Source: Kutzneria chonburiensis
GTDB lineage: Bacteria > Actinomycetota > Actinomycetes > Mycobacteriales > Pseudonocardiaceae
Assembly: GCF_028622115.1 (NCBI RefSeq)
Contig: NZ_CP097263.1
Span: forward strand, 3,224,001 to 3,288,000
Length of the DNA stretch: 64,000 nucleotides
Direction of reading: 5' to 3'
A model generated the notes under the pieces. It ran no database searches. It was not told the DNA's origin and saw nothing but the letters and a program-made list of their open reading frames with translations. Position 1 is the first letter of the stretch. Every line of letters begins with the position of its first letter. Position numbers and translations under genes: made by a program. Shown here piece by piece: positions 50,144 through 56,869 of this stretch.

Positions 50144-50271
50144 CCGTGTGAACACGATGTGACGCGTTCGGCCGCCCATCGACTGTTTCCGATACAAGGG
50201 GTTCACCGGACCGACCCGGCGGCGACACCGCCCACCGGTGCACTGGTCACGACCCGCCGCAGCGCGGGGCG

Positions 50272-50390
50272 CGTCTAGGGTTCCGCCGCGGCGACGCGGG
50301 TCTGGTCCGAGAGACGCAGGCGGTCCGCGCCGGTCGCGGCACCGTTCCACGGCGGGAGAAAAGCCCGGGAGGCCACTGGCCCCGGGCTGC
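50272..50390 (+). ncRNA. Guanidine-I (ykkC) riboswitch
   Basis: The conserved blocks of the ykkC/guanidine-I aptamer appear in order: CTAGGGTTCCG (50275-50285), TGGTCCGAGAG (50303-50313), ACCGTTCCACGGCGGGA (50341-50357) and AAAAGCCCGGGAG (50359-50371). The last block also forms an alternative hairpin AGCCCGGG (50362-50369) with CCCGGGCT (50381-50388), a likely expression platform: guanidine binding would hold the first strand in the aptamer and stop hairpin formation. It ends 37 nt before the permease start and identifies guanidine as the operon's substrate. Confidence 0.93.
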
Positions 50391-50426
50391 GCGCGTGGTT
50401 CGGGCTCGCATGATCCGGAGGCTGTC

Positions 50427-51953
50427 GTGAGCGTCAGACCCATGGCTGCGGAGCCGCCCTCCGCCACGGACACCAGCGACCTGTCCACCTTCGGCTACGG
50501 CCAGCAGCTGCGCCGCAAGATCGGCGGCTACGGCTCGTTCGCCGCCGGCTTCTCGTTCGTCTCCATCCTCACCACCGTGTTCCAGCTGTTCTTCTTCGGC
50601 TTCGGATTCGGCGGCCCGGCGTTCTTCTGGACCTGGCCGATCGTCCTGGTCGGACAGCTGCTGGTCGCGCTGTGCTTCGCCGAGCTGGCCGCCCGCTACC
50701 CGATCTCCGGCGCGATCTACCAGTGGGCCACCCGATTGGGCGGCCGGCTCTGGGGCTGGACCGCCGGCTGGCTGATGATGGTCGCCCAGGTGGTGACCCT
50801 GGCCGGCGCCGCGATCGCGTTGCAGGTCGTGCTGCCGCCGGTCTGGTCCGGGTTCCAACTGGTGCCCGGGGACAGCTCGTTGACCAGCCCGACCGGCGCG
50901 GCCAACGCCGTGGTGTTGGGCGTGCTTCTGCTATGCGTCACGACAGCCGTGACGGCGACCGGTGTGCGGCTGATGTCCGTGGTCAACAGCGTCGGCGTGA
51001 CGTGCGAGCTGGTCGGCGTGGCATTGCTGTGCGTTGCCCTGTTCGCCCACTCCGAGCGTGGCCCCGCGGTGGTGTTGGCGACGCAGGGCACCGCCGGGCA
51101 CAGCTACCTGTGGTCGTTCGCGGTGTCGGGCCTGATGGCGGCGTACGTGCTGGTCGGGTTCGACAGCGCGGGTGAGCTGTCGGAGGAGACCCGCGACCCG
51201 CGCCGAACCACGCCCCGCACCATCGTCCGGGCCGTGCTGGTGTCCGGGCTCGGCGGCGCGCTGATGCTGCTGGCCACGTTGATGGCGGCCGGCAGCGTGA
51301 CCGACGGCAGCCTCGGCGACCCGGCCCGCGGCCTGCCCTTCGTGCTGACCGACCGGCTCGGCGACACGCTCGGGCGGGTGTTCCTGGTGGACGTCGCGAT
51401 CGCGGTCGCGGTGTGCACCCTGGCCATCCAGACCGCCGCGACGCGGATGGTGTTCTCGATGTCGCGGGACGGCGTGCTGCCGTTCTCCTCCGGGCTCGCG
51501 GCCGTCAACCGGCGCACCGGCACCCCGGTTCGCGCCGCGGTCCTGGTCGGGGTGCTGGCGGCGGCGCTGTTGCTGGTCAACGTGGGCAATCCGGCCCTGT
51601 TCACGACGATCGCCAGCGTCTGCATCATGTTGCTGTACTTGGCCTATCTCATGGTTACCCTGCCGTTGCTGGTACGACGGCTGCGCGGCGGCCTACCGGC
51701 CCGGGCCGGCGAGTTCAGCCTCGGACGGTGGGGCGTCGTGGTCAACGTCCTGGCCGTCGGGTGGGGCGCGCTGATGGCCGTCAACCTCGGCTGGCCGCGG
51801 AGCGAGGTGTTCGATCCGGCCGGTGGCCACGTCTACCTCCAGTGGTTCGCGCCGCTGTTCTTGATCGGTGCGCTGGCCGTCGGCGGGCTGGCGTACCTGG
51901 CCCGCACCCGCCGTCCGATGATCGTCACGCTGGCGTTGGACGGTGTCGAATGA
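50427..51953 (+). CDS. APC-superfamily permease, probable guanidine importer
   Basis: 508-aa, about 12-helix amino acid/polyamine/organocation transporter (GYGSFAAGFSFVSI at helix 1, FDSAGELSEETRDPRRTTPR between helices 6 and 7). Permeases of this group accompany 'urea carboxylase' clusters. Since the operon is under a guanidine riboswitch, import of guanidine or a guanidino compound is the likely function. GTG start from GGAGG 6 nt upstream. ATGA overlap with the next gene. Confidence 0.85.
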   Translation: MSVRPMAAEPPSATDTSDLSTFGYGQQLRRKIGGYGSFAAGFSFVSILTTVFQLFFFGFGFGGPAFFWTWPIVLVGQLLVALCFAELAARYPISGAIYQWATRLGGRLWGWTAGWLMMVAQVVTLAGAAIALQVVLPPVWSGFQLVPGDSSLTSPTGAANAVVLGVLLLCVTTAVTATGVRLMSVVNSVGVTCELVGVALLCVALFAHSERGPAVVLATQGTAGHSYLWSFAVSGLMAAYVLVGFDSAGELSEETRDPRRTTPRTIVRAVLVSGLGGALMLLATLMAAGSVTDGSLGDPARGLPFVLTDRLGDTLGRVFLVDVAIAVAVCTLAIQTAATRMVFSMSRDGVLPFSSGLAAVNRRTGTPVRAAVLVGVLAAALLLVNVGNPALFTTIASVCIMLLYLAYLMVTLPLLVRRLRGGLPARAGEFSLGRWGVVVNVLAVGWGALMAVNLGWPRSEVFDPAGGHVYLQWFAPLFLIGALAVGGLAYLARTRRPMIVTLALDGVE

Positions 51954-52594
51954 GTGATGTCCTTGTCTCCCATGACATCCCGGCCGGCGCTGCGTGGTCG
52001 GTGCTGGTGCGGGCGGGCCGCGAACTCCGGCTCACCGCGCTCGGTCCCGGCGCGAACTGCTCGACGCTGCTGTTCACCGCCGGGCATCCGGTCGACCGTC
52101 TGAACGTGCCGGACACGTTGAAGGCCCAGATGTCGGCCACGATTCGGCCGCCAATGGTGTTGATGTCCGACCGCGGCCTGGCCTTGTGCTCGGTCACCGG
52201 CTCGTCGCTGCCCTGGCACGACGCCCTGTGCGGCCATTCCGCCGACGCTCGACGAGGCCTGCTCTCCGAACTGCGCAAGCACGGCCGGGACGTGGCCGAC
52301 ATCCACGGCTGTGTGAACTTCTTCGCCAAGGTGGCCACGTCCGATGACGCGGCCGGAACCCTTGCGTACCAACCGAATCACGCTTCTGCCGACGATTGGG
52401 TGGCACTGCGCACCGAGATCGACGTGCTCGCCGTGTTGTCGACCGCGCCCCATCCGCTCGATCCGCGTCAGGAGGCGCAGCCGGTGCGGGCGGAGGTCTG
52501 GGCCGCCGAACCGGCCGGTCCGGACGACCCGTCCCGGACGTTCCGCGTGGAAAGCGAACGGGCCCTGCTGCTGTCGAAGGAGGTCTTCGCATGA
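51950..52594 (+). CDS. DUF1989 protein, carboxyguanidine deiminase subunit (CgdA/CgdB-type)
   Basis: 214 aa, one of the two 'urea amidolyase-associated' DUF1989 proteins. In characterised guanidine pathways these two form carboxyguanidine deiminase, converting carboxyguanidine to allophanate and ammonia. Visible family segments: GANCSTLLF, PWHDALCGHS and HGCVNFFAKV, whose Cys/His residues may bind zinc. Coupled by ATGA to genes on both sides. Confidence 0.85.
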   Translation: MSDVLVSHDIPAGAAWSVLVRAGRELRLTALGPGANCSTLLFTAGHPVDRLNVPDTLKAQMSATIRPPMVLMSDRGLALCSVTGSSLPWHDALCGHSADARRGLLSELRKHGRDVADIHGCVNFFAKVATSDDAAGTLAYQPNHASADDWVALRTEIDVLAVLSTAPHPLDPRQEAQPVRAEVWAAEPAGPDDPSRTFRVESERALLLSKEVFA

Positions 52595-53217
52595 CCGCGT
52601 TCGACCCCGCGACCGCCGCGTTGGACACCGTTGTCGAGGCGGGCGAAGGCTTTCTCGGCCCGATCCCGGCCGGCGGCACGTTCCGCATCGTCGACCTGCA
52701 CGGCAACCAGGCCGTGGACACGCTGTTCTACGACGCCGCCGACGTGGACAACCGGTACAGCGCGTTCGACACCGTCCGTGAGCAGGGCGCGGTCTACCTG
52801 ACCACCGGTTCGCGGCTGCTGTCGACGCGACTGGACGTGTTGGCGACGATCACCGACGACACCTGCGGCCGCCACGACACGCTGGGTGGCGCGTGCGCGC
52901 AGGAGTCCAATGTGGTCCGTTATGGCACGCACACCCGTCACCAGAATGCCTGTCGTGAAACGTTTCTGCGCTACGGCGCGGCGGCCGGCATCGACGCGCG
53001 CCGACTCGGGCACAACATCAACTTCTTCATGAACGTCCCGGTGACGGCAGCCGGCGGGCTCACCTTCGTCGACGGCGTCTCCGCGCCGGGCAAGCACGTC
53101 CAGGTGCGGGCCGAGCGAGATCTGCTGGTGCTGATCAGCAACTGCCCACAGGTCAACAACCCTTGCAACGGCTGGAATCCCACCCCCGTGCGACTGCTGG
53201 GCTGGTGGCCGGTATGA
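52591..53217 (+). CDS. DUF1989 protein, second carboxyguanidine deiminase subunit
   Basis: 208 aa, paralogue of the preceding protein. FRIVDLHGNQAVDTLFYDAAD, DTCGRHDTLGGAC and ISNCPQVNNPCNGWNPTPVR are the family hallmarks; the conserved Cys/His set is more complete than in the first subunit, so this is probably the catalytic one. ATGA overlaps at both ends. Confidence 0.87.
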   Translation: MTAFDPATAALDTVVEAGEGFLGPIPAGGTFRIVDLHGNQAVDTLFYDAADVDNRYSAFDTVREQGAVYLTTGSRLLSTRLDVLATITDDTCGRHDTLGGACAQESNVVRYGTHTRHQNACRETFLRYGAAAGIDARRLGHNINFFMNVPVTAAGGLTFVDGVSAPGKHVQVRAERDLLVLISNCPQVNNPCNGWNPTPVRLLGWWPV

Positions 53218-55250
53218 CCGTCATCGACCACGGCGTGCGGGCCGCGACCGTCACGGTCCTCGCGGCCGGCACGCAGACCACCGTGCAGGATCTGGCCGGT
53301 CGCGGCGGCCTATGGGACGTCGGCGTGCCGCCGTCCGGGGCCTGGGACGACTTGTCTTTCGCTCTGGCCAACGCCGCCGTGGGCAACCCGCCGTCGGCCG
53401 CGGGGCTGGAAGCCGTGGCAACCGGCCCGGTGCTGCGGTTCGACCGCAGGGCAACGGTGTGCGTCACCGGGTCGGCGCATCAGGCCACTGTGGACGGTCG
53501 TCTGCTTCGGCCAGGCGTGGTCACTGTCGTCGGCGCGGGTTCGGTCGTCGACGTCGGCCCCTGCGGCGCGCCGGGCTTCCGGGCCTATCTCGCGATCGGC
53601 GGTGGCATCGCGGTGTCACCGGTGTTCGGCAGCCGGGCGACGTTCCTGCTCGGCAAGTTCGGCGGCCTCGACGGCCGAGCACTGACGGTCGGCGACGCGA
53701 TCCCCTTGGGGCGTGAGGAAAACCTCGCGGTTCCGGTGGACGTCGCGGCCGTGTTGCCAACGCTGGGATCGACCTGGACCGTCCGCGTGCTGGCCGGTCC
53801 GCACGGCGCGCCGGAGCACCTCACCGAAGCCGGTGCCACCGCGCTGCTGGCGGCGACGTGGACGGTCGATCACCGGGCCGACCGCACCGGCGTCCGGCTG
53901 GTCGGCCCCCGGCCGGATTGGGCGCGGCCGGACGGCGGCGAGGCCGGTCTGCATCCGTCCAACATCCACGACAGCGCCTACCCGATCGGCGGCATCATGC
54001 TGTCCGGCGACACCCCGGTCGTGGTCGGGCCGGACGGGCCCAGTCTCGGTGGTTTTGTCGTGCCCTACACGGTGATCCGGGCCGATCGCTGGATGTTCGC
54101 CCAGGCCCGGCCGGGCGACACCGTCCAGTTGGTGCTGGTGTCCCCGGACGAGGCCGATGCCGTCAACGCCGAGCGTGACGCGCTGCTGGCCGACCCGACC
54201 CGTGCCGTGTCCGATGCGTTCGAGCGATCGCTGGCCGGCGTGCCCGCACCGCGTTCGGCCCCGCCGAGCATCCGTCCCGACCTGCTGCGCGATCACGGTT
54301 TGTTGCTGTCCCGGTCCGCCACGGCGGACGCCCCCGCGGTCGTCGTTCGACGCGCCGGCGATCACCACGTTCTCCTGGAGGCCGGCCCGCCGCGGCTTGA
54401 CCTGCGCGTTCGACTGTGGGTGCATCTGCTCGCGCGGTCGCTGCGGGGCTCCGCCGTCGTCGGCGTCCGGGAGATCGTCGAAGGCGTGCGGTCACTGCTG
54501 GTGCGGGTCGACCCCATCGCCTGTCCGCTGCCGCACATCGCCGATGTGCTGGACCACCTGGCCGACGGCCTGCCCGATCCGGCGGCCGTCACCCTGGACG
54601 TGCGCGAGGTGACCCTGCCGATCGCGTTCGACCACCCGGCCGCGCACGAGGCGATGGCCCGCTACGCCCGGTCGGTTCGGCCGGACGCGCCGTGGTGTCC
54701 GGACAACGTCGAGTTCATCCGGCGGGTCAACGCGCTGGCCGAGCGGGACGACGTCTTCGACATCGTGCGGGACGCGACCTATCTCGTGGTCGGCCTCGGC
54801 GACGTGTACCTCGGCGCGCCCGTGGCCATTCCCCTCGATCCCCGGCACCGGCTCGTCACCACCAAGTACGACCCGGCCCGCACCTGGACACCGCAGAACG
54901 CGGTCGGCATCGGCGGCGTGTACCTCTGCGTGTACGGCATGGAAGGCCCCGGCGGCTACCAGCTCGTCGGCCGCACCGTGCCGGTCTGGCGACATGTCCC
55001 CGACGTCGCCGAACCGCCGTGGCTGCTGCGGCAGTTCGACCGGCTGCGGTTCCGGCCGGTCAGTGTCGAGGAGCTGGCCGACCTGCGAGCCGACATCCTC
55101 GCCGGCCGGTCCACATTGGACACCCGAACGGCGGAGTTCGGTCTGGCCGAGGTCACCGCACTCGAGGACCGACATGCCGAGGAGATCGCCCGCTTCCGGA
55201 ACGCGCGTGAGGCGGCCTTCGCCGCCGAGCGGGAAAGGTGGCGGGCATGA
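53214..55250 (+). CDS. Carboxyltransferase-only guanidine/urea carboxylase
   Basis: 678 aa covering only the two carboxyltransferase halves (KipA-like, residues ~10-300, VQDLAGRGGLWDVGVPPSGAWDD; KipI-like, ~320-610, with the C-terminal GIGGVYLCVYGMEGPGGYQLVGRT). Full guanidine/urea carboxylases are about 1200 aa: biotin carboxylase, carboxyltransferase, biotin carrier. Here the protein starts at the first carboxyltransferase boundary and stops (AFAAERERWRA) just where the biotin-carrier domain, with its AMKM lysine motif, should begin. Clean ATGA overlaps at both ends argue against recent decay. It would need biotin carboxylase and carrier proteins in trans. Confidence 0.88.
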   Translation: MTVIDHGVRAATVTVLAAGTQTTVQDLAGRGGLWDVGVPPSGAWDDLSFALANAAVGNPPSAAGLEAVATGPVLRFDRRATVCVTGSAHQATVDGRLLRPGVVTVVGAGSVVDVGPCGAPGFRAYLAIGGGIAVSPVFGSRATFLLGKFGGLDGRALTVGDAIPLGREENLAVPVDVAAVLPTLGSTWTVRVLAGPHGAPEHLTEAGATALLAATWTVDHRADRTGVRLVGPRPDWARPDGGEAGLHPSNIHDSAYPIGGIMLSGDTPVVVGPDGPSLGGFVVPYTVIRADRWMFAQARPGDTVQLVLVSPDEADAVNAERDALLADPTRAVSDAFERSLAGVPAPRSAPPSIRPDLLRDHGLLLSRSATADAPAVVVRRAGDHHVLLEAGPPRLDLRVRLWVHLLARSLRGSAVVGVREIVEGVRSLLVRVDPIACPLPHIADVLDHLADGLPDPAAVTLDVREVTLPIAFDHPAAHEAMARYARSVRPDAPWCPDNVEFIRRVNALAERDDVFDIVRDATYLVVGLGDVYLGAPVAIPLDPRHRLVTTKYDPARTWTPQNAVGIGGVYLCVYGMEGPGGYQLVGRTVPVWRHVPDVAEPPWLLRQFDRLRFRPVSVEELADLRADILAGRSTLDTRTAEFGLAEVTALEDRHAEEIARFRNAREAAFAAERERWRA

Positions 55251-56869
55251 GCCACGACGTGCGCACCGCGCTGAAACTGGCCGCCGAGATCGACCAGCCC
55301 GCCTTCATCACACTGCTGGACGACGCGCCGGACGGGTCGGACGGCCCGCTCAGCGGAATTCCGTTCGCAGTCAAGGACAACATCGACATCGCCGGCGTCC
55401 CGACCACCGCCGCCTGCCCGGACCGCACGGAACCGGCGGCGCGGACGGCGTTTGCCGTTGAGCGGTTGCGGGCCGCCGGTGCGGTGCCGATCGGCAAGAC
55501 GAACCTGGACCAGTTCGCCACCGGACTGGTCGGGACCCGATCGCCGTACGGGGCGTGCCACAGCGTGGCGTCCGCCGCGCACGTCAGCGGTGGCAGCAGT
55601 TCCGGCAGCGCGGTGGCCGTCGCGCTCGGCGTCGTTCCGTTCGCGCTCGGCACCGACACCGCGGGCAGCGGACGGGTGCCGGCGGCGTTCAACGGCCTGG
55701 TTGGCGTGAAGCCGACCCGTGGTCTGGTGTCCACCCGTGGCGTCCTGCCGGCGTGCCCGTCGCTGGACTGCGTGACGACGCTGACCCGTGCCGTCTCGGA
55801 CGCCCGGCCGGTGCTGGCGGCGTTGACCTGTCACGATCCGGCCGACCCGTACTCACGGCCGATGCCGCCGCGACTCCCCCACGGCGTGGCGGCTCGGATG
55901 CGGGTGGTCGCGATCCCTGACCGGCCCCTGGACCTCGATCCGGCGTACGAGACCGCATGGGCCGCCGCGGTGGACCGTCTCAAGCTTGTCGCCCACGTCG
56001 TGCCCGTGGACGTCGAGCCGTTCCTGGCGGCGGCGCGGCTGTTGTACGGCTCGGCGCTGGTCGCCGAACGGCTGGCCGCGTTCGGCGACCAGTTGGACGG
56101 CCCCGGGGTGGATCCGACCGTACGGCAGATCGTGTTGGCCGGCAACGGTTTCCCCGCAGCCGAGGTGTTCGCCGCCCACCGTGAACTGGCCCGGCTGCGG
56201 TCGATCGCGGAACGGACCTTCGTCGGAGCGGACGCCCTCCTGCTGCCCGTGACACCGGGGCATCCGACACTGGCCGACGTCGCCGCCGATCCGGTCGGGG
56301 CGAATGCGCGGCTGGGCGTGTTCACGAACATGGTGAACCTGTTCGACCTGTGCGCGGTCGCGGTGCCGGCCGGCGAGGCCGACGGCCTGCCGTTCGGCGT
56401 GCAGTTGATCGCGCCCGCCTTCGCCGACGCACCGCTGCTCGACCTGGCGGCCCGCTGGACCGGCGAGGCCGAACCGCCGATCGTCGAACGGTGCCTGCTG
56501 GCGGTCGCCGGAGCCCACCTCACCGGTCAGCCCGCCAACGCCGACCTCGTCCGGCTCGGCGGCACCTTGCACAGCCGGGCCCGGACGGCCGCGGGCTACC
56601 GTATGTACACAGTGGACGGACCGTTTCCGCGACCAGGTCTGGTCGCGGGCGACGGTCCGGGCGGTTTCGAGGTAGAGGTGTGGGACCTGCCGGCCGCTGC
56701 CGTCGGCGGTCTGCTGCCTGGCATCGCGCCGCCGCTGCACCTCGGGCCGCTCGGGCTGGACGACGGCACGACGGTGCTCGGCTTCGTCGCGGACACCGGC
56801 TGCGCCGATCCGACCCGGGAGATCAGCCGACACGGCGGCTGGCGAGCCTATCTTGCCGACCGCGCTTGA
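55247..56869 (+). CDS. atzF: Allophanate hydrolase
   Basis: 540 aa. Amidase-signature domain (1-~410) with Lys43 (AVKDNIDIAG), cis-Ser near 117-118 (SGGSSSGS) and nucleophile Ser141 (GTDTAGSGR), plus the C-terminal allophanate hydrolase domain (~430-540, ending DPTREISRHGGWRAYL). It hydrolyses allophanate to CO2 and ammonia, the final step of guanidine or urea use. ATG chosen at 55247 in an ATGA overlap. Its last 47 nt overlap the convergent DUF2306 gene. Confidence 0.92.
   Translation: MSHDVRTALKLAAEIDQPAFITLLDDAPDGSDGPLSGIPFAVKDNIDIAGVPTTAACPDRTEPAARTAFAVERLRAAGAVPIGKTNLDQFATGLVGTRSPYGACHSVASAAHVSGGSSSGSAVAVALGVVPFALGTDTAGSGRVPAAFNGLVGVKPTRGLVSTRGVLPACPSLDCVTTLTRAVSDARPVLAALTCHDPADPYSRPMPPRLPHGVAARMRVVAIPDRPLDLDPAYETAWAAAVDRLKLVAHVVPVDVEPFLAAARLLYGSALVAERLAAFGDQLDGPGVDPTVRQIVLAGNGFPAAEVFAAHRELARLRSIAERTFVGADALLLPVTPGHPTLADVAADPVGANARLGVFTNMVNLFDLCAVAVPAGEADGLPFGVQLIAPAFADAPLLDLAARWTGEAEPPIVERCLLAVAGAHLTGQPANADLVRLGGTLHSRARTAAGYRMYTVDGPFPRPGLVAGDGPGGFEVEVWDLPAAAVGGLLPGIAPPLHLGPLGLDDGTTVLGFVADTGCADPTREISRHGGWRAYLADRA

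Follow-up and report, generated by a model that had tools for sequence, protein, structure and literature searches.

Guanidine carboxylase has been described as a single biotin-containing chain, in which the carboxyltransferase (CT) lies between a biotin carboxylase (BC) and a biotin carrier (BCCP) domain and which is accompanied by CgdAB and an allophanate hydrolase. The protein analysed here, encoded in a 64,000-nucleotide stretch of the Kutzneria chonburiensis genome (the window), resembles this enzyme in end-to-end CT homology, partner genes, guanidine riboswitch control and Asp1584 (K. lactis numbering), but it lacks BC and BCCP and has Met at position 1330 instead of the Asp of guanidine carboxylases. 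The best structural match of its predicted model (mean pLDDT 81, pTM 0.84) was the CT part of the K. lactis urea amidolyase/carboxylase (3VA7, 5I8I; Foldseek TMq 0.83, 36% identity), which, unlike the host protein, is a single chain with BC and BCCP, carries Asn1330 and uses urea. Stand-alone CT_C_D and CT_A_B proteins without BC or BCCP are represented by the KipI/KipA-type pairs (PxpB/PxpC; MSMEG_0435-0436), but these consist of two chains of about 20–34% identity, without urea-carboxylase motifs and with no established Cgd/allophanate hydrolase partner. MSMEG_0435-0436 has been solved bound to an AccA3-containing complex (9YX5), a parallel to the partner proposed below. In the actinobacterial acyl-CoA carboxylases (AccA alpha, AccD beta, AccE), the CT is also encoded apart from a shared BC-BCCP chain, as proposed here for the host protein, but it comes from an unrelated family and acts on acyl-CoA substrates; in actinobacteria, different CT subunits use the same alpha chain (PMC11001197, PMC13118682). 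The M. smegmatis cluster MSMEG_2184-2189, published as a 'urea amidolyase' cluster (PMC4222082), is similar by its reported gene content (permease, two unknown frames, 'urea carboxylase', amidase) and resembles the second CT-only clade described below, but AmtR/GlnR control was reported there.

The CT gene is the fourth in a five-gene operon (permease, CgdA, CgdB, CT, allophanate hydrolase) on the plus strand, which together with the Guanidine-I riboswitch directly upstream spans 50264–56869 (Table 1). This riboswitch, overlooked in the initial annotation, is the single Guanidine-I match in the whole host genome. The permease starts either with GTG at 50427 or with ATG at 50442. UAAP1 and UAAP2 are presumably the proteins published as the carboxyguanidine deiminase subunits CgdA and CgdB. 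CgdB retained 55 of 59 conserved positions and the allophanate hydrolase 82 of 95, with its conserved Lys and Ser motif positions unchanged, and both of these later-acting enzymes look intact from their sequences; for UAAP1, a mixed alignment yielded a single usable column, too few for a score. The coordinates and the ATGA overlaps given for the CT gene in the initial annotation were correct: its start codon, an ATG at 53214, overlaps the end of UAAP2 at 53217, and the allophanate hydrolase gene begins with an ATG at 55247 that overlaps the CT stop codon at 55250.

Table 1. Features of the operon and of its CT gene (positions in the window).
Feature	Position	Strand	Basis
Guanidine-I (ykkC) riboswitch aptamer, operon leader	50264–50373	+	Rfam RF00442, 67.9 bits vs gathering score 63, full-length model match
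APC permease of 'urea carboxylase system' type, probable guanidine importer	50427–51953	+	TIGR03428, 685.5 bits, below curated cut-off 740
UAAP1-like protein (DUF1989), probable carboxyguanidine deiminase subunit CgdA	51950–52594	+	TIGR03425, 178 bits, below cut-off 206; PF09347
UAAP2, probable carboxyguanidine deiminase subunit CgdB	52591–53217	+	TIGR03424, 291.7 bits, above cut-off 284.7
CT-only urea/guanidine carboxylase protein, 678 aa, without BC or BCCP	53214–55250	+	TIGR02712 positions 442–1107 of 1201; predicted structure similar to KlUC/KlUA CT
CT_A_B subdomain (PF02626)	53319–54131	+	E = 2.4e-78
CT_C_D subdomain (PF02682)	54345–54995	+	E = 6e-33
Met262 codon (K. lactis position 1330, substrate residue)	53997–53999	+	alignment with clade and full-length sequences
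Asp530 codon (K. lactis Asp1584, conserved catalytic residue)	54801–54803	+	Asp in all clade and full-length sequences compared
Allophanate hydrolase, amidase and C-terminal domain	55247–56869	+	TIGR02713, 593 bits, above cut-off 511

Pfam recognized CT_A_B and CT_C_D in the CT protein and nothing else, and the match to the urea carboxylase model TIGR02712 was limited to its central part, so BC and BCCP are missing, one at each end, and the protein is confined to the carboxyltransferase borders as initially annotated. Among the features defining a guanidine carboxylase, CT_A_B and CT_C_D of TIGR02712 type are present, as is an operon with CgdA, CgdB, allophanate hydrolase and a guanidine riboswitch (the CgdA-like gene scoring below its model cut-off), but the same chain contains neither a BC domain, the model match beginning at 442, nor a BCCP domain with a biotinylated Lys, the match stopping at 1107. 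The NCBIfam cut-offs for the 5-oxoprolinase subunits were not reached (131 bits vs 500 for PxpC and 34 vs 145 for PxpB).

Guanidine carboxylases have been called by Asp1584 together with Asp1330 (PMC11410670), and urea carboxylases carry Asn at the latter position (PMC12186494). The host protein has Asp1584, but its Met1330 agrees with neither group. Met occupies this position in all 33 sequences of the host (first) CT-only clade, which represent about 31 distinct loci, at least two being common to the set of relatives and the GTDB set; Asp was found in all 56 full-length enzymes from the GTDB scan. The host protein retained 155 of the 176 positions conserved across 65 full-length enzymes and the urea-carboxylase-specific core motif DGGEAGLHPSN, and residues specific to the first clade include Asp1287, Arg1289, Pro1325, Gly1328, Val1351 and Glu1478, with His1529 in 32 of 33 sequences. 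This combination indicates that the catalytic core was kept and another part of the protein was altered, probably the pocket. As two defining domains and Asp1330 are absent, it would be wrong to class the protein with the guanidine carboxylases as published; its role probably resembles their CT step. The riboswitch favours the guanidine function assumed in the initial annotation, but Met at the residue reported to separate guanidine from urea carboxylases complicates it. Riboswitch-controlled guanidine operons of this kind would escape both the published Asp1330 rule and the cut-offs of full-length models.

About 30 actinobacterial loci, spread over many genera, were found to carry the CT-only operon, and Guanidine-I accompanies nearly all of them. 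Eight genomes among the searched relatives carried close orthologues (64–90% identity, one match split in two pieces), all within the permease-UAAP1-UAAP2-CT-allophanate hydrolase set, and no further neighbour was common to more than three of the nine loci or extended beyond close kin. A GTDB genome scan revealed 24 first-clade loci at ≥57% identity, a few of them incomplete at contig ends or in one frame, from Kutzneria, Amycolatopsis, Goekera, Planosporangium, Blastococcus, Nocardioides, Kribbella, Actinokineospora, Actinospica and MAGs; the closest named match was the Kutzneria buriramensis protein (91% identical). The lack of BC and BCCP genes nearby, noted in the initial annotation, held both for the host, whose five BC domains are all more than 600 kb away on its one 10.4-Mb contig, and for the 24 loci, where none was found in up to 9 kb of DNA on each side. 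In the next-closest 56 loci (≤51% identity, mainly Proteobacteria and Verrucomicrobia), the CT was always fused to BCCP and also to BC in all but one, which starts at a contig edge. Guanidine-I exceeded the Rfam threshold in 22 of the 24 first-clade loci tested; in genome G118 a sub-threshold match (50.6 bits) was in the right place, and the remaining contig begins inside the permease. No Guanidine-I was found in eight loci of relatives with full-length or second-clade enzymes.

The pN/pS of the CT gene relative to congeners was 0.18–0.19, similar to neighbouring genes, and by this measure the gene is under purifying selection and not broken. The initial annotation had left room for a deletion if relatives carried the full-length gene, which is unsupported because they share the split gene; a deletion or pseudogene was rejected on the grounds of conservation, intact frames and pN/pS of about 0.18. 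The CT-only architecture is real and conserved, and apparently undescribed, as no paper noting it was found in a literature search that had most subscription journals outside its reach. In congener G006 (L057:6267-7967), the allophanate hydrolase gene beside the CT gene lies on the other strand, and its score resembles those of hydrolases from full-length operons, which suggests that the original one was replaced.

The initial annotation had proposed searching the genome for unpaired BC and BCCP genes. The five BC domains of the host all belong to other carboxylases, namely an AccA3-type alpha chain (a close homologue, 966 bits), two MCC-like alpha chains, a 1664-aa BC + BCCP protein and a 1125-aa pyruvate-carboxylase-like protein, and one 74-aa biotinyl protein (C1:6359699-6359917) stands alone. 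The latter is closely matched in most CT-only genomes tested and also occurs in operon-less congeners; its distribution therefore does not follow that of the operon, and it was rejected as a dedicated partner. A BC restricted to operon-bearing species was rejected as well, congeners with and without the operon having 5–6 BCs each, as were a BC or BCCP elsewhere in the neighbourhood, where there was none, and a BC under a second guanidine riboswitch, which the host does not have; no biotin enzyme was found in the gene calls around the weaker Guanidine-I matches of relatives. A single conserved donor was rejected too: G118 lacks AccA, and Goekera, which has AccA and an MCC-type alpha chain only, lacks the long fused carboxylase. 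Instead of an AccA3-type chain, G118 has only a stand-alone BC and a fused multidomain carboxylase (≥1790 aa), which we tentatively assign to the S. erythraea type (PMC6491548). As G118 lacks AccA, no one BC donor is common to all CT-only genomes; judging by gene content, the CT would either accept several donors or need none. G118 (C1:3281621-3282943 and 3428344-3429636) is a complete-looking 4.3-Mb genome of the order without an AccA3-type alpha chain, and its stand-alone BC sits beside PxpABC-like genes.

The absence of an encoded biotin-handling half nearby in many actinobacteria suggests that the CT-only protein borrows activated CO2 from a fatty-acid carboxylase or does without biotin. 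We infer the partner in trans, the substrate and the reaction, and give an even chance to a guanidine-assimilation operon with a stand-alone CT subunit fed by a shared BC-BCCP alpha chain. Guanidine would switch the operon on and be imported by the permease, biotin would be carboxylated on a separate shared alpha chain, of AccA3 type or, where AccA is missing, a fused acyl-CoA carboxylase, and the CT subunit would pass the carboxyl to guanidine. CgdAB would then deiminate carboxyguanidine to allophanate, from which the hydrolase would release ammonia and CO2. Such a supply by acyl-CoA carboxylase alpha chains, already raised in the initial annotation, is the likeliest mechanism, and PDB 9YX5 makes it plausible by analogy. 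According to its title, this structure shows MSMEG_0435-0436, a CT pair of KipI/KipA type, bound to the long-chain acyl-CoA carboxylase of M. smegmatis; its chains include AccA3, and its KipA-type chain has a close homologue in the host genome. The bound pair is a distant relative of the host CT and is closer to the 5-oxoprolinase-type pair. CT-only enzymes also occur in two separate clades of a phylum in which alpha chains are shared. This model is weakened by the missing common donor (G118, Goekera), by a BC content not clearly different between congeners with and without the operon and by Met at 1330 in place of the guanidine-type Asp. If the CT is fed in trans, a lipid-making carboxylase would also feed nitrogen assimilation, both being linked through one alpha chain.

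Possible, though doubtful, is a biotin-independent enzyme whose CT fold activates the substrate directly with ATP and needs no BC or BCCP. The biotin-free relatives PxpB/PxpC of 5-oxoprolinase are assumed to phosphorylate 5-oxoproline with ATP (PMC13274462), which keeps such a reaction conceivable, and the lack of a BC donor common to the clade genomes is in its favour. The phylogeny also bears on it. In rooted trees with stand-alone KipI/KipA-like pairs as the outgroup (one on a taxon subset, plus FastTree), the first clade (support 98–100) was sister to all fused enzymes (94–97), whereas with midpoint rooting it grouped with actinobacterial enzymes; long-branch attraction could be another cause of the sister placement. 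Pro1325, Gly1328, a hydrophobic residue at 1330 and Val1351 match the nearest stand-alone relatives, so the absence of BC and BCCP may be ancestral, the clade never having been fused. With the clade placed outside all full-length enzymes, its initial description as a 'reduced' carboxylase may be wrong; the term fits the second, nested clade. The first clade could be a living intermediate in the evolution of fused carboxylases. A more specific proposal, in which it is the surviving pre-fusion form, carboxylates guanidine or a close relative with ATP directly at a rebuilt CT active site and preceded a biotin dependence acquired with the BC and BCCP fusion, is decidedly unlikely. A widespread biotin-free version would mean that biotin is dispensable for a carboxylation believed to require it. 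Against biotin independence, the urea-carboxylase core is kept (DGGEAGLHPSN, Asp1584) and aligns with nothing or poorly in PxpBC-like relatives, no nucleotide-binding motif was noticed on inspection, and the second CT-only clade has the ordinary guanidine-type residue at 1330.

This second clade is widespread in one related family, with 29–30 genomes detected when 399 genomes of the order were sampled. All 18 loci read (L062, L064, L251, L252, L311-L323, L327) have Asp1330 and no BC or BCCP in the operon, one of them with a pyruvate-carboxylase-sized gene about 3 kb upstream; the allophanate hydrolase adjoins the CT gene in nine, the other half being without it. Four members placed on the tree were nested inside the fused enzymes, so BC and BCCP were probably lost there. 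Several second-clade genomes have a full-length copy as well. KipI/KipA-like pairs with urea-carboxylase-like motifs (L271-L274 and L269:5337-7147, the last with DGGxAGxHPSN) are the closest stand-alone relatives of the urea carboxylase CT; no BC or BCCP was found in the DNA read around L269.

A trans-fed carboxylase acting on a guanidine-related compound, the riboswitch reporting guanidine released from or accompanying the substrate, is unlikely. The invariant Met1330 and the clade-specific Asp1287, Arg1289, Glu1478 and His1529 would suit a different substrate, but CgdB and the allophanate hydrolase are conserved, and a congener without the CT operon points to guanidine. In that genome (G002, L211:7362-9913), a strong Guanidine-I match (81.4 bits) is followed by an arginase-family enzyme and a homologous APC permease. 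Guanidinases belong to the arginase family; none of the NCBIfam models named the enzyme above cut-off. The locus is a candidate guanidinase operon, an alternative guanidine module, and suggests that guanidine modules of different kinds are swapped while the riboswitch and the transporter stay the same.

It is improbable that the CT is served by an unpaired BC or BCCP gene of its own at a distant site in the genome: the 74-aa biotinyl protein, matched in most CT-only genomes tested, is not confined to congeners with the operon, the CT-only genomes have no stand-alone BC in common and the host has no second Guanidine-I site. A relict or decaying operon that now carboxylates nothing, as the absence of BC and BCCP and the altered substrate residue might imply, is scarcely credible and already largely refuted by the conservation of intact frames and operon in so many genera, nearly always with the riboswitch, and by pN/pS.

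Two Amycolatopsis loci (L266:5816-10035 in G068 and L267:7589-11800 in G509) carry an operon of LamB/YcsF-like, 82-aa biotinyl-like (with an EVMKS motif), stand-alone BC, KipI-like and KipA-like genes downstream of an apparent multicomponent monooxygenase. It is possibly a multi-subunit biotin carboxylase with a urea-carboxylase-type CT, and its separate BCCP, BC, KipI-like and KipA-like genes suggest that a CT of this kind and its BC can be products of different genes.
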